Shown here: positions 4,542 to 57,076 of the stretch, piece after piece | How the letters are laid out: every line of letters begins with the position of its first letter | How positions within the stretch are numbered: position 1 is the first letter of the stretch | NCBI RefSeq assembly: GCF_023195885.1 | Contig: NZ_JALPKO010000005.1 | Location: 62,001 to 126,000 of the forward strand | Direction: 5' to 3' | Source of the DNA: Methylonatrum kenyense | GTDB lineage: Bacteria; Pseudomonadota; Gammaproteobacteria; Nitrococcales; Aquisalimonadaceae | DNA: 64,000 nt | The notes under the pieces: generated by a model | Database searches by the model: none | What the model saw: only the letters and a program-made list of their open reading frames with translations | What the model was told of the DNA's origin: nothing | Made by a program: the position numbers and the translations under genes

Positions 4542-4817
4542 CAAGGAAACACTGATGTAGTCCCACGCCTGCGTTGGAGCCCGCATTTTTTCCGAGGCAA
4601 GGCGCGCTGTGCAGTGCCGCAGTCGCTCTGCGGTCAAGCAGCGCAACGCGGCAGTCGGGGAAAATGCGGCCCAACCCGAAGGGCCCGGCCGGTTTCGGCC
4701 CCTGGCTGTGTTGCGTCACCGGCCCGGTAGCTACGGCTACCGAACCGGCACCGCGCCTTGCTAGATGACCGAAACCGGTCTCGGGCGCAGTCGCGGGAAT
4801 ACATTAGTGTTTCCTTA
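4542..4817 (+). repeat. Family A element, copy A2
   Basis: This copy is of the same orientation and similar length (276 bp) as A1, with closely matching interior sequence. Its ends read AGGAAACACTGATGTA and TACATTAGTGTTTCCT. The base after GAT is G here and its partner is C; copy A1 has T and A, and copy A3 has C and G. The right end is flanked by TA; the left has CA, probably a mutated TA. It lies between purL and the convergent DUF815 gene. Confidence 0.85.
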
Positions 4818-15713: not shown

Positions 15714-15769
15714 GAAGGAAGCACTGACCTATTTTCGCGCAGGCGCGAAAATAGGTCAGTGCTTCCTTA
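15714..15769. repeat. Miniature family A derivative (a6), perfect 26-bp hairpin
   Basis: Arms at 15715-15740 and 15743-15768 are perfectly complementary over 26 bp with a 2-nt AG spacer. The ends (AGGAAGCACTGAC and GTCAGTGCTTCCT) are family A termini carrying paired substitutions (AAC to AGC with GTT to GCT; GAT to GAC with ATC to GTC). It begins one base after the hydantoinase stop codon. Its right end, CCTTA, continues into AGGAGG, so it partly forms the ribosome-binding site of the next gene. Confidence 0.85.
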
Positions 15770-21044: not shown

Positions 21045-21318
21045 TAAGGAAACACTGATCTATTCGCACGCCTGCGTTGGAGTCCGCATTTTTTCCGAGG
21101 CAAGGCGCGCTGCGCAGTGCTGCAGTCATTCTGCGGTCAAGCAGCGCAACACAGCAATCGGGAAAATGCGGCCCAACCCGAAGGGCCCGGCCGGTTTTGC
21201 CCCTGGCTGTGTTGCGTCACCGGCCCGGTAGCTACGGCTACCGAACCGGCACCGCGCCTTGCCAGATGACCAAAACCGGTCTCGGGCGCAGACGCGGGAA
21301 TAGATCAGTGTTTCCTTA
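21045..21318 (+). repeat. Family A element, copy A3
   Basis: This 274-bp copy is flanked by TA on both sides, with 21-bp perfect terminal repeats (21045-21065 and 21298-21318) reading TAAGGAAACACTGATCTATT and its complement. Relative to A1, both arms carry matching changes at three positions. The right TA forms part of the TAA stop codon of the sugar dehydrogenase gene on the minus strand. Confidence 0.9.
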
Positions 21319-41564: not shown

Positions 41565-41612
41565 GAAACACTGAATCCTTTCGCAGACGCGGGAATAAAT
41601 CAGTGTTTCCTA
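41562..41612 (+). repeat. Miniature family A derivative (a7)
   Basis: TAGGAAACACTGA (41562-41574) and TCAGTGTTTCCTA (41600-41612) form 13-bp perfect ends flanked by TA. The right 30 bp are the right terminus of the long elements (CAGACGCGGGAATAAATCAG), so this looks like an internal deletion of a full element. The left TA is part of the epimerase TAG stop codon. Confidence 0.85.
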
Positions 41613-45800: not shown

Positions 45801-47570
45801 GTGGGGGTTGAAGCCTGGTTAACGGTGGCGGTCGTGGTCGCGATGCTGGGTATTCTCAGCCTGACCCGGCTGGCGGCCGACATGGTTTTCCTCGGCGGGC
45901 TCACCGTGTTGCTGGTGGCAGGGGTGCTGACGCCGGCGGAGGCGTTTCGCGGCCTGGGCAACCAGGGCCTGATCACGGTCGCCGTGCTCTACGTGGTGGT
46001 GGCCGGTCTGCAGGAGACAGGTGGCATCCACTGGATCGTGCAGCGGGTGCTCGGCCGTCCGCGCTCGCTGGGCCACGCCCAGCTGCGGCTGATGAGCCCC
46101 GTGGCATTTCTCAGCGCCTTTCTGAACAACACGCCAGTGGTCGCCATGCTGATCCCGGCGGTCAGCGAGTGGGCCCGGAAATTCAACCTGGCCAGTTCGA
46201 AACTGATGATTCCGCTGAGCTATGCGGCGATCCTCGGCGGCACCTGCACGCTGATCGGCACCAGTACCAACCTGGTGGTCAACGGCCTGATCATCGACAG
46301 CACCGAGCATGACGGTCTACGCATGTTCGACCTGGCCTGGGTCGGCGTGCCGGTGGCGCTGGTGGGGCTTGCCTTCATCCTGCTGACCACGCGCTGGCTG
46401 CTGCCGGACCGGCGTCCGGTGCTGAGCCAGATGGGCGATCCGCGCGAGTATTCGGTGGAGATGCTGGTGGACCGGGATGGTCCGCTGGTCGGGCGCAGCG
46501 TCGAAGCCGCCGGCCTGCGTCACCTGTCGGGCATGTTTCTGGCGGAAATTGATCGGGACGGTACCATACTGCCGGCGGTCACCCCGCAGGAGGAATTGCA
46601 GTCCGGCGACCGGCTGCTGTTCGTCGGTGTGGTTGACTCGGTGGCGGAGCTGCAGAAGATCCGTGGCCTGAGCCCGGCAACGGACCAGGTGTTCAAGCTC
46701 GAGGGGCATCGCTCGCAGCGGACGCTGGTCGAAGCGGTGGTTTCGGGAAGCTGCCCGGTGGTGGGCAAGAGCATACGCGACGGCCGATTTCGCTCCCTGT
46801 ATGACGCGGTGGTGATCGCCGTGGCCCGGGATGGCGAGCGGCTGCGGCAGAAGGTTGGTGATATCGTACTGCGCCCCGGCGATACCCTGCTGATGGAGGC
46901 GCGGCCGGTGTTTCTGGAGCAGCAGCGCAATAATCGCGATTTCTTTCTGGTCAGCAAACTGGAGGATTCGGTGACGCCGCGGCACGAAAAGGCCCCGATT
47001 GCGCTGGCCCTGCTGGTGCTCATGGTGCTGGTGGTCACCTTCGGCTGGCTCAGCATGATGGAAGGGGCGCTGCTGGCGGCCGCCGGTATGATCGTGACGC
47101 GCTGTGTCGGGGTGGAGGCCGCACGACGCAGCATCGACTGGTCGGTGCTGCTGGTGATTGCTGCTGCCTTCGGCGTGGGCCTTGCGATGGACAAGACCGG
47201 CGTCGCCGTGACCACGGCGCAGACAGTGATCGGTGTGACCGGGGACAATCCCTGGGTCAACCTGGGTGTGATCTACCTGCTGACCGCGCTGTTCACGGCG
47301 GTGATCACGAACAACGCGGCGGCGGTCCTGATGTTCCCGATCGCCTTTGCGGTGGCGGGGGATCTCGGGCTCGACTACCTGCCCTTTGTGATCGGCGTCA
47401 TGCTCGCCGCCTCGGCCAGTTTTGCGACACCGATCGGCTACCAGACCAACCTGATGGTCATGGGGCCCGGGGGCTACCGCTTCAGCGATTATTTTCGGCT
47501 GGGGCTGCCGCTGAATCTTGTAACCGGCCTGATCGCGGTGCTCGTCATCCCGCTGGTCTGGCCGTTCTGA
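45801..47570 (+). CDS. SLC13-family permease with TrkA_C domains, probable sulfate transporter
   Basis: The 589-residue inner-membrane protein has two halves of hydrophobic helices (about 1-200 and 400-589) separated by two TrkA_C-type regulatory domains (about 210-385). Both halves contain the SLC13/CitMHS hairpin motifs (SAFLNNTPVVAMLIP, and ITNNAAAVLMFPIAFA). This layout matches SAC1-like sulfate transporters. Location directly before Sat-CysC and CysQ supports sulfate as substrate, by inference. The start is probably GTG at 45801, with GGGAGG about 13 nt upstream; a later start is possible. Confidence 0.85.
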   Translation: MGVEAWLTVAVVVAMLGILSLTRLAADMVFLGGLTVLLVAGVLTPAEAFRGLGNQGLITVAVLYVVVAGLQETGGIHWIVQRVLGRPRSLGHAQLRLMSPVAFLSAFLNNTPVVAMLIPAVSEWARKFNLASSKLMIPLSYAAILGGTCTLIGTSTNLVVNGLIIDSTEHDGLRMFDLAWVGVPVALVGLAFILLTTRWLLPDRRPVLSQMGDPREYSVEMLVDRDGPLVGRSVEAAGLRHLSGMFLAEIDRDGTILPAVTPQEELQSGDRLLFVGVVDSVAELQKIRGLSPATDQVFKLEGHRSQRTLVEAVVSGSCPVVGKSIRDGRFRSLYDAVVIAVARDGERLRQKVGDIVLRPGDTLLMEARPVFLEQQRNNRDFFLVSKLEDSVTPRHEKAPIALALLVLMVLVVTFGWLSMMEGALLAAAGMIVTRCVGVEAARRSIDWSVLLVIAAAFGVGLAMDKTGVAVTTAQTVIGVTGDNPWVNLGVIYLLTALFTAVITNNAAAVLMFPIAFAVAGDLGLDYLPFVIGVMLAASASFATPIGYQTNLMVMGPGGYRFSDYFRLGLPLNLVTGLIAVLVIPLVWPF

Positions 47571-47600
47571 ACAACCGATATTGGTATTTCGAGGTGAATC

Positions 47601-49331
47601 ATGACTGAGTCGACATCCGATCTGGTGGAACCGCATGGCGGTGCACTGCGGGAACTGCTGGCGGCGCCGGAACGCGTCGAGCAGCTCAAGGCCGAGGCCG
47701 TGGATCTACGATCCTGGGATCTGACCGAGCGTCAGGTCTGTGATACCGAATTGCTGCTGAACGGCGGGTTCTCGCCGTTGTACGGCTTCCTGACCGAACG
47801 GGATTACGACAGCGTCTGCACCGATATGCGTTTGGCGGACGGCACACTGTGGCCGATCCCGATCAACCTGGATGTGGCGGAAGCCTTCGTCGAGGGCCTT
47901 CAGGCGGGCGACCGAATCGCATTGCGCCACCCGGAAGGCATGGTGCTGGCGGTGATGACGGTGGAGGATATCTACCGGCCGGACTTCAAGCGCGAGGCAG
48001 AGCTGGTCTACGGCGCTGCCGACGATGCGCATCCGGAGGTCTTCCGGCTGTTCAACCAATGCAATCCGGTGTATCTGGGCGGTCGGCTGGAGGGCCTGGA
48101 GCTGCCGCCGCACCACACCTTCAAGCATCTGCGGCACACGCCGCGCGAATTGCGTGAGTGGTTTGCCAAGCTGGGCTGGAACAACGTGGTGGCCTTCCAG
48201 ACCCGGAACCCGATGCACCGGGCCCATGTGGAGTTGGCCAAGCGCGCCTCGCAGACCGGTGCCGCGAATCTGCTGATCCACCCGGTGGTGGGCATGACCA
48301 AGCCGGGTGACGTCGACTACTTCATCCGCGTGCGGTGTTACCAGGAAGTGGTCAAGCACTTCCCGGAGCAGACCACGACCTTGTCGCTGCTGCCGCTGGC
48401 CATGCGCATGGGCGGCCCGCGGGAGGCGGTCTGGCACGCGATCATCCGCAAGAATCACGGTTGCAGCCGATTCATCGTCGGCCGGGATCATGCCGGCCCG
48501 GGCAAAAACGGCCAGGGCGAGGATTTCTACGGACCCTACGATGCGCAGGAGCTGGTGCGCAGCTTCGAGGCAGAACTCGGCATCACCATGCAGCCCTTCG
48601 AGGAAATGGTGTACGTCGAGGACCGCGCCCAGTACGTGCCGCGCTCCGAGGTGCCGGAAGGCGCCCGGGTACTGAACATCTCCGGGACCGAGCTCCGTCG
48701 GCGGCTGAAGGAAGGCCTGGATCTGCCGGACTGGTTCTCCTATCCCCAGGTCATTGCGCATCTGCGGCAGGCCTTCCCGCCCAAGCGTCAGCAGGGCTTC
48801 ACGGTGTTCTTTACCGGCCTGTCCGGCTCCGGCAAGTCCACGATAGCCAACGTGCTGATGGCCAAGCTGATGGAAGTCGGCACGCGGCCGGTGACGCTGC
48901 TGGACGGCGACCTGGTGCGCAAGCACCTGTCCAGCGAACTCGGGTTCTCCAAGGAACACCGGGAGCTGAATATCCAGCGTATCGGCTATGTGGCCAGCGA
49001 GATCACCAAGAACCGCGGGATCGCCATCTGCGCGCCGATTGCACCCTACCGCGCCACGCGGCGCACCGTGCGCGAGATGGTGTCCCAGTACGGCGGCTTC
49101 ATCGAGGTGCATGTGGCCACGCCTCTGGAGGTCTGCGAACAGCGGGACCGCAAGGGCCTGTACGCCAAGGCCCGGGCCGGCCTGATCAAGCAGTTCACGG
49201 GTATCGATGATCCCTACGAGGCGCCGGAACAGGCCGAGGTCGTAGTCGATACCTCCAGGTACAGCGCCGACGAACTGGCCCAGCAGATCCTGCTGCAGCT
49301 GGAGAAGCAGGGGTATATCGACAACGACTGA
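47601..49331 (+). CDS. Bifunctional sulfate adenylyltransferase/APS kinase
   Basis: This 576-residue fusion performs both steps of sulfate activation. An ATP sulfurylase domain (about 1-390) carries FQTRNPMHRAHVELAK and IVGRDHAGPGKNG. An APS kinase domain follows, with the P-loop GLSGSGKST near residue 407 and LLDGDLVRKHLSSELGFS downstream. The product is PAPS. This homomeric type differs from the CysD/CysN form of E. coli. The gene sits between a likely sulfate permease and cysQ, which removes the PAP left after PAPS use. A perfect hairpin spans its stop codon. Confidence 0.94.
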   Translation: MTESTSDLVEPHGGALRELLAAPERVEQLKAEAVDLRSWDLTERQVCDTELLLNGGFSPLYGFLTERDYDSVCTDMRLADGTLWPIPINLDVAEAFVEGLQAGDRIALRHPEGMVLAVMTVEDIYRPDFKREAELVYGAADDAHPEVFRLFNQCNPVYLGGRLEGLELPPHHTFKHLRHTPRELREWFAKLGWNNVVAFQTRNPMHRAHVELAKRASQTGAANLLIHPVVGMTKPGDVDYFIRVRCYQEVVKHFPEQTTTLSLLPLAMRMGGPREAVWHAIIRKNHGCSRFIVGRDHAGPGKNGQGEDFYGPYDAQELVRSFEAELGITMQPFEEMVYVEDRAQYVPRSEVPEGARVLNISGTELRRRLKEGLDLPDWFSYPQVIAHLRQAFPPKRQQGFTVFFTGLSGSGKSTIANVLMAKLMEVGTRPVTLLDGDLVRKHLSSELGFSKEHRELNIQRIGYVASEITKNRGIAICAPIAPYRATRRTVREMVSQYGGFIEVHVATPLEVCEQRDRKGLYAKARAGLIKQFTGIDDPYEAPEQAEVVVDTSRYSADELAQQILLQLEKQGYIDND

Positions 49332-49350
49332 GGCGGGGCCTCAGTCGTTG
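49322..49350 (+). terminator. Perfect hairpin spanning the sat-cysC stop codon
   Basis: CAACGACTGAGGC (49322-49334) and its exact complement (49338-49350) form a 13-bp stem with a GGG loop. The left arm contains the last codons and the TGA stop. No U-tract follows, so it may act as an mRNA 3' barrier rather than a classic terminator. Confidence 0.55.
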
Positions 49351-49362
49351 TCGAGGATTCAG

Positions 49363-49440
49363 TGTTCAGGTTTCAGTTTTCAGACAGGGCCATTCCAGCT
49401 CCACGGCACCGTCTGAACACTGAAAACTGAACACTTTTTT
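49363..49440 (+). terminator. Long inverted repeat ending in T6
   Basis: Arms 49363-49385 (TGTTCAGGTTTCAG...) and 49411-49433 match over 23 bp with two mismatches, followed by TTTTTT to 49440. The arms are built from repeats of the TTCAGTTTTCAG type. It may end transcription between sat-cysC and cysQ, or be a simple repeat of another origin. Confidence 0.5.
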
Positions 49441-49454
49441 CTTTCGAGGTTTTC

Positions 49455-50219
<765 letters not shown>

Positions 50220-50222
<3 letters not shown>

Positions 50223-50555
50223 GGAAACACTGATTTATTTCCGCGCCTGCGCCCGAGACCGGTTTTGGTCATCTGGAAGGACGCGGTGCCGGTTCGGTAG
50301 CCCCACTACCCACGGCAACCTGCTTCTGGCCAGACGTGTAGGGCGGGTCAAGCGTAGCGGACCCGCGCGGTGTGAGCCGTTATCGAATTGGCCTGGCCGG
50401 CCAGTCTGCCCGGTTTTTCCATGGCCTTAATTCTCCTGGGAGACCCAGCTGCACCGGGATGCCTGACACCGCGTGCATTCCTGCGCTGGAGGGAACATTG
50501 CCTTGGAAAAATGCGGACACCAACGCAGAGGCGGAAATAAATCAGTGATTCCCTA
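50220..50555 (-). repeat. Family A element, divergent copy A4 (inverted orientation)
   Basis: This 336-bp copy is flanked by TA, with ends TAGGGAAACACTGATTTATT and its complement (one mismatch). About 70 bp on the left and 45 bp on the right match the long elements in reverse orientation. The central part, roughly 50300-50500, is unrelated to the other copies. It lies between convergent cysQ and the amidotransferase gene. Confidence 0.8.
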
Positions 50556-50572
50556 GCTCCGGCGCCTTGCGT

Positions 50573-51376
50573 TCAGGTGCCGCGGTTCTGTCCTGCCGCG
50601 GTCACCAGCGCGCGGAACAGGCGGCGTTGTTCCCGGCGTTGCGGCAGGTATTCCGGATGCCACTGCACGCCGATGACCCAGGTTTCGGCCTCCAGTTCGA
50701 TGGCCTGGGTGACGTTCTGCCGGTCCCGGGCGACCACCACCAGCTTGTTGCCCGGGTCACGGATCGCCTGCCGGTGGAGGGAGTTCACCGGGCAGCGGGT
50801 CCGGCCCAGGACCATGGCCAGTCGGCTGTCGCTGACCAGATCCACGGTTTTCAGCGGCCAGATGGTGTCCAGGTTCGGCGCCTCGTCGTAGTAATCCGAT
50901 AGCTCCTGATACAGCGTGCCGCCGTTCACCACGTTCAGCAGTTGCGCGCCGCGACAGATGCCGAGTACGGGCTTGCCCTCGGCAAGTGCCTGCTGCAGCA
51001 GTTCGGTTTCCAGCGCGTCCCGGTCCCGGTCGCCGCCGTGCCGGCCCCGCAGACCGGATAGACGACGTGCGATCCAGATCAGCGGGAACAGCAGCAGACT
51101 CAGCAGGAAGCCGGACAGGCTGCCACTGCGGCGGCGCAATTCCCGCAACGGTGGCACCACCCGCGTTTCGCCGTAAAGCGCCGGGTCGACATCGGCACCC
51201 CCGCCGATGATCAGCCCGTCCAGGCCCGGCATGCGCTGGCGATGCCGTGGCCGGATTCGCCGTGGTCGTCCACCCGCCAGGTACACGGCCAGCGCGGTAA
51301 AAAGCCAGGCCGCCTGCCCGCCCCGGTCCGGTCCGGTGACACCGATGCAGGGTCGGTGGCGTCGCTCAGAAGCCAT
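50573..51376 (-). CDS. Class-I glutaminase / gamma-glutamyl-GABA hydrolase-like protein (peptidase C26)
   Basis: The 267-residue protein has a class-I amidotransferase-like fold: LIIGGGADVDPALYGE near residue 55, the nucleophilic Cys in GICRGAQLLNV near 140, and the His-Glu pair in VQWHPEYLP near 240. Between them is a strongly hydrophobic insert (SGFLLSLLLFPLIWIARRLS, about residues 87-106), which looks like a membrane anchor or re-entrant segment and is not part of the usual fold. Its start overlaps the stop of the amidoligase gene by 11 bp, so the two proteins are probably made together and may act on one substrate. Confidence 0.83.
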   Translation of the reverse strand: MASERRHRPCIGVTGPDRGGQAAWLFTALAVYLAGGRPRRIRPRHRQRMPGLDGLIIGGGADVDPALYGETRVVPPLRELRRRSGSLSGFLLSLLLFPLIWIARRLSGLRGRHGGDRDRDALETELLQQALAEGKPVLGICRGAQLLNVVNGGTLYQELSDYYDEAPNLDTIWPLKTVDLVSDSRLAMVLGRTRCPVNSLHRQAIRDPGNKLVVVARDRQNVTQAIELEAETWVIGVQWHPEYLPQRREQRRLFRALVTAAGQNRGT

Positions 51377-52364
51377 TCAGCCAGTGCCGGCAGCGGTCCG
51401 CCCAGACCTGGTCCACCGAGCTGACCGCGACATCGGTGCGCGTGCGCCAGGAATGGATCATGGTCTGCATCAGGGCGTCCCGATTGGCCAGCCATTCGAC
51501 GGCAAGCCAGCCCTTCAGCTCATCGGCCAGCGTCCAGTCGGGTTCGTCGATGCGGCAATTCGGCAGTCGGTAATGGAATGCCGGGCGAGGCTTGACCAGT
51601 GCCGCATCGGGCACGCCGTGCACCGCCTGGTCGCCGTGCAGTTGGCGGAAAACGGGTAGCAGGTCCAGTGCGCGGTTGCGGGTCGCGTTGTAGCGCAGGT
51701 AGTCGCGCAGCAGGGATTCACTATCCGGTTGGTAGGCCTCGTCGAGCACCAGGTGCCGGTAGTCCGGCGGAAATTCGTTGATGTACGGCGTCATGCGGCG
51801 GCTCCAGTCGATCTCGCCGCGCGTTACCAGCCAGTCCCAGAGCAGCAGGAAGGCCCGCAGGTGCCGCAGGATCGCGTCACCGTCAAGGCGGATCACCTCC
51901 GGGTTCAGGTGCAGACCGAAGGCATACAGCACCGAGGCCCGGGTGCCGCGGGCATGGGCCTGCTGGAGCCGCTCGCGTAGGGCCTCCAGGCGGTGGACGT
52001 CGCGAAACGGAATCGGCGGCGTGACAATCTCGTGGGGTACGACGGTGCCGGCCAGCCGCGCCAGCGTGTCCTCCACGCGGTCGCGTGTCTCGGAGGCGTC
52101 CAGCTCGATACCAATCGCCGACAGGTAACGCAGGTAGGAACGCTCCTTCAGCAGGGCGGTGTCGATTTCGACCTGGAAGTCGCCCCATTCGGTGTCGCGG
52201 ATGTGGTGGATGAAGGCACTTTCCCGCTCCAGCCTGCCGCCATACAGGGCGTGCACCAGGCTGCTGATCTCAGCCAGGGGCAGACCGGCAAATTCCAGCT
52301 CGACGCCCAGCCGGCGCGGCCGCCCGTCGGCGGTGTCCAGTATTTCCGGCATCGGAAAGTCCAT
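51366..52364 (-). CDS. Putative amidoligase (COOH-NH2 ligase of the glutamine synthetase fold)
   Basis: The 332-residue protein matches the amidoligase family described by Aravind and colleagues: RRLGVELEFAGL near the N terminus with Glu residues for metal binding, DFQVEIDTALL, then HEIVTPPIPF and LHLNPEV. These ligases are predicted to form amide bonds on small molecules or peptides, and are often encoded next to a class-I glutaminase, as here. The natural product or protein target is unknown. The frame extends to 52415; the ATG at 52364 is preferred. It is coupled to the downstream glutaminase gene by an 11-bp overlap. Confidence 0.82.
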   Translation of the reverse strand: MDFPMPEILDTADGRPRRLGVELEFAGLPLAEISSLVHALYGGRLERESAFIHHIRDTEWGDFQVEIDTALLKERSYLRYLSAIGIELDASETRDRVEDTLARLAGTVVPHEIVTPPIPFRDVHRLEALRERLQQAHARGTRASVLYAFGLHLNPEVIRLDGDAILRHLRAFLLLWDWLVTRGEIDWSRRMTPYINEFPPDYRHLVLDEAYQPDSESLLRDYLRYNATRNRALDLLPVFRQLHGDQAVHGVPDAALVKPRPAFHYRLPNCRIDEPDWTLADELKGWLAVEWLANRDALMQTMIHSWRTRTDVAVSSVDQVWADRCRHWLNGF

Positions 52365-52481
52365 TCGCGGCCCCGCATGATGAGAATGCCCGGCACAGTC
52401 TACCGGACATCCCACGTGTTTCAGCGGGCTTCCGCAGCCGCCACGAACTGACGCTCAGGTTTCGGACCGGGACGGTGCCTC

Positions 52482-52664
52482 TCCGCGAGCGTTTGGGCCA
52501 GCGTAAGTCTTTACCAGGCCTGACGTGCCTTCGGCCCAACAGGGCCAGGCAAAGACTTGCGCCGTCCTTACCAGGCTGCGAATGGTCTTGCTCCGTCCAG
52601 CTTCAGGTCCCTGCGGTTCGACGAGACCGGGACGGCTACTGCCGTGCCGGTTGCCCCAGAGTGC
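52482..52664. repeat. Family C structured repeat, copy C3
   Basis: The stem pairs 52501-52520 (GCGTAAGTCTTTACCAGGCC) with 52543-52562, with three mismatches. The cap reads GACG-TGCCTTCGGC-CCAAC; the GCC/GGC mini-stem replaces the CCC/GGG of C1. The tail leads to CCGGTTGCCCCAGAGTGCC, resembling the C1/C2 tail. Confidence 0.65.
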
Positions 52665-52669
52665 CGGGG

Positions 52670-52731
52670 GAGGAGAAGGTTTTTCTTCGGATCTGTTGAA
52701 CCGGAGGTTCGTCAGTCCGAGGAAAAGCTTG
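52670..52731. repeat. Family C-related hairpin, copy C4
   Basis: AAGGTTTTTCTTCGGA (52676-52691) pairs with TCCGAGGAAAAGCTT (52716-52730). The loop carries a different inner hairpin, GAACC-GGA-GGTTC. It keeps the AAG...CTT base of the family C stem but lacks the GACG...CCAAC cap, so it is either a variant or a relic. Confidence 0.5.
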
Positions 52732-52759
52732 TCCTCACGCGGCACGGGGTTCGTGCTGA

Positions 52760-52850
52760 TCCGACACTGGCGGGGCCAGTGCAAGCTTTCTCCCTGGCCT
52801 GACGACGCTCCGCGCCAACAGGGCCAGGGAGAAACTTCCACTGTCCCTGC
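52760..52850. repeat. Family C structured repeat, copy C5
   Basis: The stem pairs 52777-52799 (CAGTGCAAGCTTTC then TCCCTGGCC) with 52822-52843. The cap is GACG-ACGCTCCGCG-CCAAC, with a CGC/GCG mini-stem. It ends directly against a family A left terminus at 52851. Confidence 0.68.
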
Positions 52851-52880
52851 TAGGGAAACACTGTTGTATTCCCGCGGCTG
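52851..52880 (+). repeat. Fragment of a family A element end
   Basis: TAGGGAAACACTG, then TTGTATTCCCGCGGCTGC, resembles the left terminus of family A with no right arm. It joins family C copy C5 with no gap. From 52881 to the miaB start I see only a possible TATTAT -10 box near 52985. Confidence 0.6.
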
Positions 52881-53024
52881 CACGCGGTGTGCTTTCAATT
52901 AGCAATGACCGCGCGCTTGTCACTTGCCCGCGGGGGGACGGTGGCGGTACCCTCTGCCGGCTTCGCTGGCGGGTGACCGCTGCGCTATTATTTCAGGTGC
53001 GACGAGAGGTTGCGTCAGGTCCGC

Positions 53025-54392
53025 ATGAAACAGAAGGTTTACGTCAGGACCCATGGTTGCCAGATGAACGAGTACGACTCCGCGAAGATGGCGGAGCTGC
53101 TTGGGCATGCGCGTGGCTACGAGGCGGTGGATGATCCGGAACAGGCGGATCTGTTGTTGCTGAATACCTGCTCGATCCGCGAGAAGGCGCAGGAGAAAGT
53201 GTTCTCCGAGCTCGGCCGATGGCGGGCTCTGAAGGAGCGAAATCCCGACTTGGTTATCGGGGTCGGCGGCTGCGTTGCCAGCCAGGAAGGCGAGGCGCTG
53301 CAGCAGCGGGCGCCGTTTGTCGATCTGGTGTTCGGGCCGCAGACACTACACCGTTTGCCGGAAATGCTCGACCGGACGCGCAGCGAGCGTCAGCCCGTGG
53401 TCGATGTCAGCTTTCCCGAGATCGAGAAATTCGACCGCCTGCCGGAGCCTCGCGCCGAGGGGCCGACGGCGTTTGTCTCGATCATGGAGGGCTGCAGCAA
53501 GTACTGCAGCTTCTGCGTCGTGCCCTACACCCGCGGCGAGGAGATCAGCCGGCCGTTCGACGATGTGCTGGCCGAGGTGGCGATGCTGGCCGAGCAGGGC
53601 GTGCGCGAGGTCACGCTGCTGGGCCAGAACGTCAACGCCTACGACGGCGAAATGGCGGACGGCACGCGCGCCGACCTGGCTTTGCTGATCCAGTTCCTGG
53701 CGGCGATCGACGGCATCGACCGCATCCGCTACACCACCAGTCATCCGCTGGAATTCTCCGACAGCCTGATCCAGGCCTATGCCGAGATCCCTGAGCTGGT
53801 GGACCACCTGCACCTGCCGGTGCAGAGCGGCTCCGATTTCGTGCTGCGGCTGATGAAGCGCGGTCACGGCATCGACGAGTTCAAGGACAAGATCCGCCGG
53901 CTGCGCGAAATCCGGCCGGACATCAGTATCGGTTCCGATTTCATTGTCGGTTTCCCCGGCGAGGACGCGGATGCCTTCGAGGAAACCATGACCCTGGTCG
54001 AGGAGATCGGTTTCGATCAGTCGTTCAGCTTCGTCTACAGCCCACGCCCCGGAACACCGGCAGCCTCGCTGGCGGACAGCGTGCCGATGGCGGAGAAAAA
54101 GGCGCGGCTGCAGCGCCTGCAAACCGCCATCGAGGCCAATGCCCGGCGCATCAGCGCGTCCATGGTGGGGACCGAACAGCGGGTGCTGGTGGATGGCGTG
54201 TCGAAGAAGGACGACACTGAGATCAAGGGCCGCACCGGCAACAATCGCGTGGTCAACATGCCGGGCCAACGGCGATTGATCGGACGCTTCGTGACGGTCC
54301 GGATCACCGATGCCCTGGCGCATTCCCTGCGCGGCGAGATCGTGGCGGTGGAAGAGGATCTGCCGGGTGATGCCGTGCCGGCCAGTGCCTGA
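53025..54392 (+). CDS. miaB: tRNA-2-methylthio-N6-dimethylallyladenosine synthase
   Basis: MiaB adds a methylthio group to A37 of tRNAs reading UNN codons. The 455 residues contain the MTTase-domain cysteines C12, C49 and C83 for one [4Fe-4S] cluster, the radical SAM motif C157-C161-C164 (CSKYCSFC), and a C-terminal TRAM domain. The ATG at 53025 gives the canonical N terminus [19 protein letters not shown]; the frame extends a few codons earlier. It heads the conserved miaB-ybeZ-ybeY-corC-lnt run. Confidence 0.96.
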
Positions 54393-55891: not shown

Positions 55892-56814
55892 GCGTCGACG
55901 ACAAGCGAAGCGAACAGGGTGGCGGCGGACAACGCGGCTGGCTGGAGCGCCTGGGCCAGGCGCTTTCGGGCGGCGAGCCGCGCGACCGCGAGGATCTGGT
56001 TGATACGCTGCGGGATGCGCAGCGCCGTGAGCTGCTGGATGCCGATCAGCTGGCAATGATCGAAGGCGTGCTGCATGTCTCCGAACTGCAGGTGCGCGAC
56101 ATCATGATTCCGCGCAGCCAGATGGTGGTGGTCCGGCGTGATGCGGATATGGCGGAGTTGCTGGCGCCGGTGATCGAGTCCGGGCATTCGCGCTTTCCGG
56201 TTATCGGTGACAGCCGCGATGACGTGGTCGGCATCCTGATTGCCAAGGACCTGTTGCGTTTTGTCGCGGACGACGGCGATTCGCGGTTGAAGATGCGGGA
56301 ACTGATGCGGCCGGCGCTTTTCGTCCCGGAGAGCAAACGCCTGGATGTGTTGCTCACCGAGTTCCGCAGCAGCCGCAACCACCTTGCCGTGGTGGTTGAC
56401 GAATACGGCGGTGTGGCCGGCATTGTCACGATCGAGGATGTGCTGGAGCAGATCGTCGGCGAGATCGACGACGAGCACGACTATGACGACGATCGCTACA
56501 TCCTCAGTCATCGTCAGGGTGGCAGCATGGTCAAGGCGCTGACCCCGATCGAGGATTTCAACAGTCATTTCGAGACCGAGTTGTCGGATGACGAATTCGA
56601 TACCATCGGCGGACTGGTGGCGCACCGCTTCGGTCACCTGCCAAAGCGGGGCGAGATAGTGACCATCGACAGCCTGCGCTTCGAGGTGGTCCGCGCGGAC
56701 AACCGGCGCATTCACCTGCTGCTGGTTCGTCAGATCCCGACCTCCGGTTCGCAGGAGCGAAGGCAGCCGGACAGTGCCGCCGGCTCCTCCGTCGACGCGC
56801 TAGGGAAACGCTGA
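55888..56814 (+). CDS. corC: CBS-domain protein CorC (HlyC/CorC family)
   Basis: The 308-residue cytosolic protein has two CBS domains (about 65-190; [14 protein letters not shown] and [18 protein letters not shown]) and a CorC/HlyC C-terminal domain. It is associated with magnesium and cobalt efflux or envelope stress; the exact role is debated. The last residues (LGKR) and the TGA stop are encoded by the family A element A5, which begins at 56801. Without it the frame would run on, so the C terminus has been altered. Confidence 0.92.
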
Positions 56815-57076
56815 TTTATTCCCGCGTCTGCGCCCGAGACCGGTTTTGGTCATCTGGCAAGGCGCGGTGCCGGTTCGGTAGCTGTAGCTACCGGGCCGGT
56901 GACGCAACACAGTCAGGGGCCAAAACCGGCCGGGCCCTTCGGGTTGGGTCGCATTTTTCCCGATTGCTGTGTTGCGCTGCTTGACCGCAGAATGACTGCG
57001 GCGCTGCGCAGCGCGCCTTGCCTCGGAAAAAATGCGGACTCCAACGCAGGCGTGCGAATAAATCAGTGTTTCCCTA
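56801..57076 (-). repeat. Family A element, copy A5 (inverted orientation)
   Basis: This 276-bp copy is flanked by TA at 56801-56802 and 57075-57076, with interior sequence the reverse complement of A1-A3. Its ends pair along the usual stem, with one G/T wobble-type position (AAACGCTGA against TCAGTGTTT). It separates corC from lnt inside an otherwise tight conserved operon and supplies the corC stop codon. Confidence 0.88.

Follow-up and report, generated by a model that had tools for sequence, protein, structure and literature searches.

What would a bacterium do with a predicted amide-forming enzyme whose gene overlaps that of a glutaminase-fold protein, and why should the latter carry a hydrophobic segment in the midst of its soluble domain? 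This is the question raised by a gene pair of Methylonatrum kenyense, found in a stretch of 64,000 nucleotides that we analysed as a whole (the window). The answer that we prefer, to which we give a probability of about 0.4, is that the two proteins run a cycle of ligation and hydrolysis on gamma-glutamyl-type amides at the inner face of the membrane.

A putative ligase and its glutaminase-fold partner

Both genes lie on the reverse strand. The first (51366..52364) encodes 332 residues that match the Pfam family Amidoligase_2 (PF12224) with 211.5 bits against a curated cut-off of 22, and its start at 52364 agrees with the 'M-x-F-P-x-P'-like start present in most relatives. A G-x-E-x-E motif (Glu22 to Glu24, codons 52293..52301) is invariant in 52/52 aligned rows; we take its position to match that of the metal-binding E-x-E of glutamine synthetase. 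The second gene (50573..51376, 267 residues) codes for a PuuD/SpuA-like protein of the class-I glutaminase fold (GAT in what follows), which scores 145.8 bits against Peptidase_C26 (PF07722, cut-off 20.5) and 48.7 bits against the Pfam GATase profile. Its Cys-His-Glu triad is intact: the nucleophile Cys141 (50954..50956) and the remaining residues, His240 and Glu242 (His240 to Glu242, 50651..50659), are invariant in 73/73 rows. The first-pass annotation had recognized in these letters an amidoligase paired with a class-I glutaminase-fold partner, with an 11-bp overlap of their genes, and it was right on both counts: the two frames have 51366..51376 in common, the Pfam matches are those expected, and the genes are adjacent in relatives as well. 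The genome holds a single amidoligase and one strong C26 match, the gene of the pair (128 bits in a genome search), besides four further PF07722 matches of 20–37 bits that, judging from their sequences, we take to be the glutaminase portions of common biosynthetic enzymes.

The association itself is not new. Amidoligase_2 enzymes have reportedly been predicted since 2009, when Iyer and colleagues are said to have described this family with an adjacent glutamine-amidotransferase-like thiol peptidase in proteobacteria, that is, the same two families side by side as here. We know of no mention, in that work, of a hydrophobic insert or of the VTT partner discussed below. The pair, then, is already described, and for the insert we found no description. 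A narrow literature search returned no paper giving an Amidoligase_2 enzyme a substrate.

The amidoligase has a fold like that of the glutamine synthetase catalytic domain. Its AlphaFold2 model (pLDDT 90.8) was compared with solved structures, and all 50 entries listed are glutamine synthetases or relatives that form gamma-glutamylamides, including the enzyme that glutamylates 1-naphthylamine (8wwv, Z 12.5); they align over 191–221 residues with Z scores of 11.3–12.7, in a range, under about 13, where the tool warns that a match may be mere resemblance. The alignments mostly begin at residue 98–119 of glutamine synthetase, so that its N-terminal domain is absent. Foldseek alone gives a best E value of 0.0068, with glutamine synthetase, YbdK and glutamate cysteine ligase as its weak top matches and none under E 0.001, and no solved structure is matched by sequence at E 1. 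Profile, model and structure comparison taken together suggest a ligase that shares the fold of the GS/GCS superfamily.

The partner gives a sharper picture. Its model is closest to PuuD (6vtv, Z 28.4), the uncharacterised lin1909 (3fij, Z 27.9) and SpuA (7d53, Z 27.8), the entries for these three proteins spanning Z 26.8–28.4, whereas the glutaminases of CTP, GMP, anthranilate and aminodeoxychorismate synthases reach at most 22.0 among the 50 entries listed. A profile search ranks them alike, with 154.2 and 108.6–114.2 bits against at most 46.1. The protein is thus nearer to PuuD and SpuA, which act as hydrolases in pathways of gamma-glutamyl amides, than to ammonia-supplying domains, and 'glutaminase', the word used in the first-pass annotation, is probably the wrong one, since the nearest structures and families are gamma-glutamyl-amide hydrolases. 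It is not PuuD itself: against the corresponding equivalog (NCBIfam PRK11366.1) it scores 62.2 bits, far below the cut-off of 266.

Pairs of like make-up and known chemistry do exist, and those that we found consist of a gamma-glutamyl ligase and a hydrolase. Escherichia coli puuA adjoins puuD, and SpuI is presumably the ligase counterpart of SpuA in its gamma-glutamyl-polyamine pathway; in both cases a GS-like ligase goes with a C26 hydrolase that is among the best structural matches of our partner. The likeness has limits: PuuA is a full-length homologue of glutamine synthetase, PuuD has a loop of 10 residues at the site of the insert, and the four flanking genes scanned here (45801–54392) include no oxidase or aldehyde dehydrogenase. 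In AtdA1/AtdA2 and NpaA1/NpaA2, according to PMC11335346, a GS-like ligase acting on a lipophilic amine stands beside a GAT-like enzyme that hydrolyses its gamma-glutamyl amide, the hydrolysis by NpaA2 being deduced there. These systems are coupled to a Rieske dioxygenase, and none is present in the four flanking genes scanned.

From these likenesses we would draw the first two steps of the proposed cycle. Using ATP, the amidoligase would form an amide bond between an amine and a carboxylate, the latter most likely the gamma-carboxylate of glutamate, as the enzyme's resemblance to glutamine synthetase suggests. The C26 partner, by its family and its intact triad, may then hydrolyse amides of this kind in the manner of PuuD and AtdA2, by way of a glutamyl-thioester like that trapped in SpuA. 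Together they would write and erase a gamma-glutamyl-type tag.

Pairing and distribution

Constancy of the pairing is the evidence that a quite different reading would put forward. Here the C26 protein would be a true glutaminase, feeding ammonia to the amidoligase, which would amidate a carboxylate of a metabolite or a peptide. In a sample of 274 genomes spread over the Gammaproteobacteria the amidoligase is found in 15, each time with an adjacent GAT; at E 1e-30 the GAT profile finds 29 genomes, the same 15 with at least 170.6 bits and 14 others with at most 142.4, which we take to have other C26 proteins. Among the 80 loci that we collected, the 80 best out of at least 587 relatives retrieved with a query centred on the window, the GAT adjoins the amidoligase in 77. 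The frames overlap in 51 of these 77, are at most 60 bp apart in 25 more and 69 bp apart in one (with starts chosen by a script). The trees of the two proteins match, and their pairwise distances correlate over 51 loci (Pearson 0.69, Spearman 0.49). All this, and the intact triad, counts in favour of a synthetase and its glutaminase subunit, which so near-perfect a pairing fits as well as it does a hydrolase. The structural ranking given above speaks against ammonia supply, as do amidoligases that lack an adjacent partner. In the metagenome-assembled genome of a Halodesulfovibrio (L042, completeness not given) the best GAT match reaches just 24.4 bits; L179 and L180 have no GAT within about 1.5 kb; in L085 the GAT sits on a contig of 19,014 bases and the amidoligase on another of 17,016; and four alphaproteobacterial plasmid loci, from the 7 of 11 amidoligase-bearing plasmid records that were examined, have no partner annotated beside them, in a gene table that is incomplete. 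To these may be added L123, a second, more distant amidoligase of a genome (G298) that also has a normal pair. On balance we lean modestly towards hydrolysis rather than ammonia supply for the C26 protein, and regard the complete ammonia-channelling scheme as somewhat improbable.

The amidoligase occurs in 22 of 59 near relatives (the window's own genome included) and in 22 of 398 genomes of the phylum, 20 of these 22 being new; among the 20 further loci the GAT is adjacent in 18, and all 18 are without insert. With 4/15 GATs of the class-wide sample and 0/18 of the further phylum loci bearing it, insert-bearing GATs are the less common form in Pseudomonadota; their share of the 80 loci is biased upward, these being the best relatives of a window-centred query. 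PF12224 matches were absent from 14 well-known genomes used as controls. Of the viral sequences, 22 stretches matched our patterns and none encoded a relative; more distant phage members are named in the literature.

Some observations can be set beside this survey. Two amidoligase matches, L110 and L180, each contain one in-frame stop, and are decayed copies or assembly errors. Other C26 genes keep other company on plasmids, one beside an ATP-grasp gene in Phenylobacterium (L145, 1–1983), another near a glutamine-synthetase gene and a P450 in Arthrobacter (L147, 1–1929).

The hydrophobic insert

The inserted segment covers residues 73–110 or so of the C26 protein (51047..51160), where a loop of 48 residues replaces the 11–12 of insertless relatives. 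Within it lies a hydrophobic helix at residues 87–106 (51059..51118), with a central proline, Pro98, and basic residues on both sides. In the model (mean pLDDT 87.2) this is one helix, lying between the glycine-rich strand (G58–G60) and Cys141, which is where the first-pass annotation had placed a hydrophobic insert; confidence across the region is 80 for residues 81–90, 82 for 91–100 and 63 for 101–110.

That reading had allowed for the insert being absent from homologues and proving a noise of the strain, a proviso that did not survive comparison. The insert is present in 21 of 22 GATs (window and 21 relatives, L008 being the sole exception), and in the larger alignment (A3) 57 of 73 GATs have a loop of 42–59 residues and the other 16 one of 11–12, with no intermediates. 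This alignment comprises the window and 72 of the 77 loci with a partner; left out were L045, L049, L055 and L080, all insert-bearing, and L057, whose gene is cut by a contig end. The amidoligase alignment (A4) takes the window and 51 of the 80 loci, and alignment A1 covers 18/22. By record title the insert-bearing rows, many of them metagenome-assembled genomes, belong to eight phyla: Pseudomonadota, Balneolota, Bacteroidota, Thermodesulfobacteriota, Acidobacteriota, Verrucomicrobiota, Myxococcota and Thermomicrobiota. Conservation in relatives, and the tree that follows, rule out strain noise or misreading. No description of the insert turned up in a limited search of the literature; passages of PMC12239564, PMC12096838, PMC3541065 and PMC10127716 have no bearing on the insert or the family, and the terms sought on them are absent from PMC8679861.

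A GAT tree computed without the insert columns puts the 57 insert rows on one side of a branch (97/91, starred), and the insert state changes once on it, against 14.7 times in shuffles. When the tree is rooted with PuuD and five other C26 proteins (43 of the 72 aligned loci taken; a seventh outgroup candidate, L148, left out for its short annotated gene), the 35 insert rows form one clade (98/84, starred) within 28 insertless rows; several deep branches of this tree are weak, and no single branch sets its outgroup apart, two outgroup rows standing beside two amidoligase-linked rows. All six outgroup proteins have loops of 10–12 residues. We read the insert, from these alignments and trees, as a probable single gain. 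The amidoligase tree likewise parts by the insert state of the partner with one change (92/74, not starred), the orphan L042 falling on the insert side.

Is the helix made for a membrane? We compared, in the 57 insert rows, the best 19-residue span of the insert with the best span elsewhere in that protein. On the octanol scale the insert is the hydrophobic peak in 54/57 rows, its values ranging from −15.3 to +2.9 with a median of −10.4; the corresponding medians are −1.5 for the remainder of these proteins and −5.1 for insertless partners. The Kyte-Doolittle scale separates less well: the insert is the peak in 47/57 and not in 10/57, with a median of 1.44 against 1.18. The helix of the window ranks second in hydrophobicity among the 57 on that scale (1.96), and it is hydrophobic all round (moment 0.06); six Thioalkalivibrio inserts are amphipathic, at just 0.64–0.84, and that of L072 is scarcely hydrophobic at all (octanol +2.9). 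A proline stands within the hydrophobic core in 46/57 rows and is missing in 11/57, and the 12-residue flank is net positive after the core in 47/57 and before it in 38/57. The core is short.

The membrane anchor that had been suggested from the sequence therefore fares unevenly. Hydrophobicity, the proline and the basic flanks sustain it; a conventional transmembrane anchor is unlikely, given that the polypeptide before and after the helix forms part of a single soluble domain and that both flanks are basic. A monotopic or interfacial helix is the better fit, and the segment should be interfacial, reentrant, or outside the membrane altogether. A monotopic segment enters and leaves by one face, and this one has the hydrophobicity, the proline and the basic flanks for it, yet is predicted as a single helix run, not as helix-break-helix. 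PglC offers an analogy for such a topology: PMC6133551 describes a monotopic enzyme at the cytoplasmic face, with a short hydrophobic helix containing a proline and with basic residues nearby, where a Ser-Pro break and a Lys-Arg pair jointly enforce reentrance. Its helix is N-terminal, whereas the C26 insert is internal, with a proline that mostly follows F, Y or A and a model that is unbroken.

The same helix might have another use. It might dock the hydrolase onto the amidoligase, or pair two hydrolases, and never touch lipid. The insert's position, after the glycine-rich strand, is close to the active-site face, where other class-I amidotransferases bind their synthetase partners. Moreover, an amidoligase without the N-terminal domain of glutamine synthetase may for that reason have a free surface, and the two trees have the same insert split. 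This sits poorly with the insertless partners, which pair just as closely with the same amidoligase family, so that docking does not need the insert, and with a stretch that, in the window, is apolar on all sides and basic at both ends. A docking helix seems to us somewhat improbable but, like ammonia channelling, a serious rival, and the membrane reading plausible. In the insert-bearing clade, the window included, the third step of the ligase-hydrolase cycle would then be membrane attachment: the 20-residue helix with its central proline would lie within or upon the cytoplasmic leaflet and keep the hydrolase at the membrane, close to an amine or a product that might be lipophilic or lipid-linked. 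A helix of apparently single origin directs the search for substrates to those that are lipophilic or associated with the membrane, and as an element that can be deleted it lends itself to experiment.

Neighbouring genes and candidate substrates

Besides the partner, no gene is common to the loci: apart from antisense shadows of the two genes, the most widespread cluster is found in 19/81, and CysQ in 5/81, namely the window and four close relatives. The neighbour worth discussing is a gene for a small VTT protein (PF09335, DedA-like), directly downstream of the GAT in 9/80 loci and 2.2 kb away in L056. The order amidoligase, C26, VTT belongs to part of the Gammaproteobacteria (L052, L079, L081, L087, L089, L092, L094, L096 and L097, and also L111, L115, L116, L117, L118 and L121); the VTT gene is present in 6/15 genomes of the class-wide sample, and absent within about 1.5 kb in all 20 further phylum loci. 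It accompanies 11/28 insertless rows against 3/34 insert rows, and none of the 29 rows with proline-type inserts, a contrast that comes down to one independent pair (L077, where the contig ends, was left out); for this reason we do not claim that insert and VTT gene replace each other.

We take E. coli yqaA to lie near gshA. On an Azospirillum plasmid the amidoligase is within about 4 kb of genes for an undecaprenyl-diphosphate phosphatase and a DedA protein, and flipping of undecaprenyl phosphate has been proposed as the function of DedA proteins (PMC10127716). The cell-envelope target evoked at first sight is thereby hinted at in some lineages: neighbours of the VTT/DedA type are a pointer in that direction, no more, and together with hydrophobicity, central proline and basic flanks they are consistent with membrane binding. 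One may go further and imagine a gamma-glutamylation cycle that is bound to the membrane and acts on lipophilic or lipid-linked amines, with a hydrolase that became monotopic in one old clade over eight phyla and, elsewhere, a neighbouring VTT protein playing the membrane part. This bolder version we consider distinctly unlikely. Were it true, ligase, hydrolase and lipid-carrier transporter would make up a new envelope pathway.

A more familiar substrate has to be considered. The pair might be a glutathione amide synthetase, as might be expected in Ectothiorhodospiraceae, for which glutathione amide is predicted from residue 21 of glutathione reductase (PMC8877833), and the genome does have a glutathione synthetase domain. 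That domain (PF02951) is absent, however, from 12 of 16 amidoligase-bearing genomes chosen outside the group of the window (completeness not given), which leads us to reject glutathione amide as a general product and makes glutathione unlikely as a general substrate. In Allochromatium vinosum, moreover, glutathione amide was not found by a metabolomic study (PMC4213376). Such an activity could still belong to the window's own lineage; as an account of the pair it appears highly improbable.

The surroundings of the pair have a feature of their own. Scattered over the window is an element, mostly of about 270 bp, with 18-base inverted ends (GGGAAACACTGATNTATT): copies lie at 114–387, 4544–4815, 15716–15767, 21047–21316, 50222–50553 and 56803–57074, and single ends at 41594–41611 and 52853–52870. 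With up to three mismatches the ends match 14 times in the window, where 0.04 matches are expected; with at most one they match 129 times in the whole genome, 119 and 46 times in two congeners, 42 times in a member of the family and 0–3 times in the other six genomes searched, and a reversed control gives none. The element looks like a MITE family, and one of its copies has its end some 20 bp away from the C26 gene's 3′ end.
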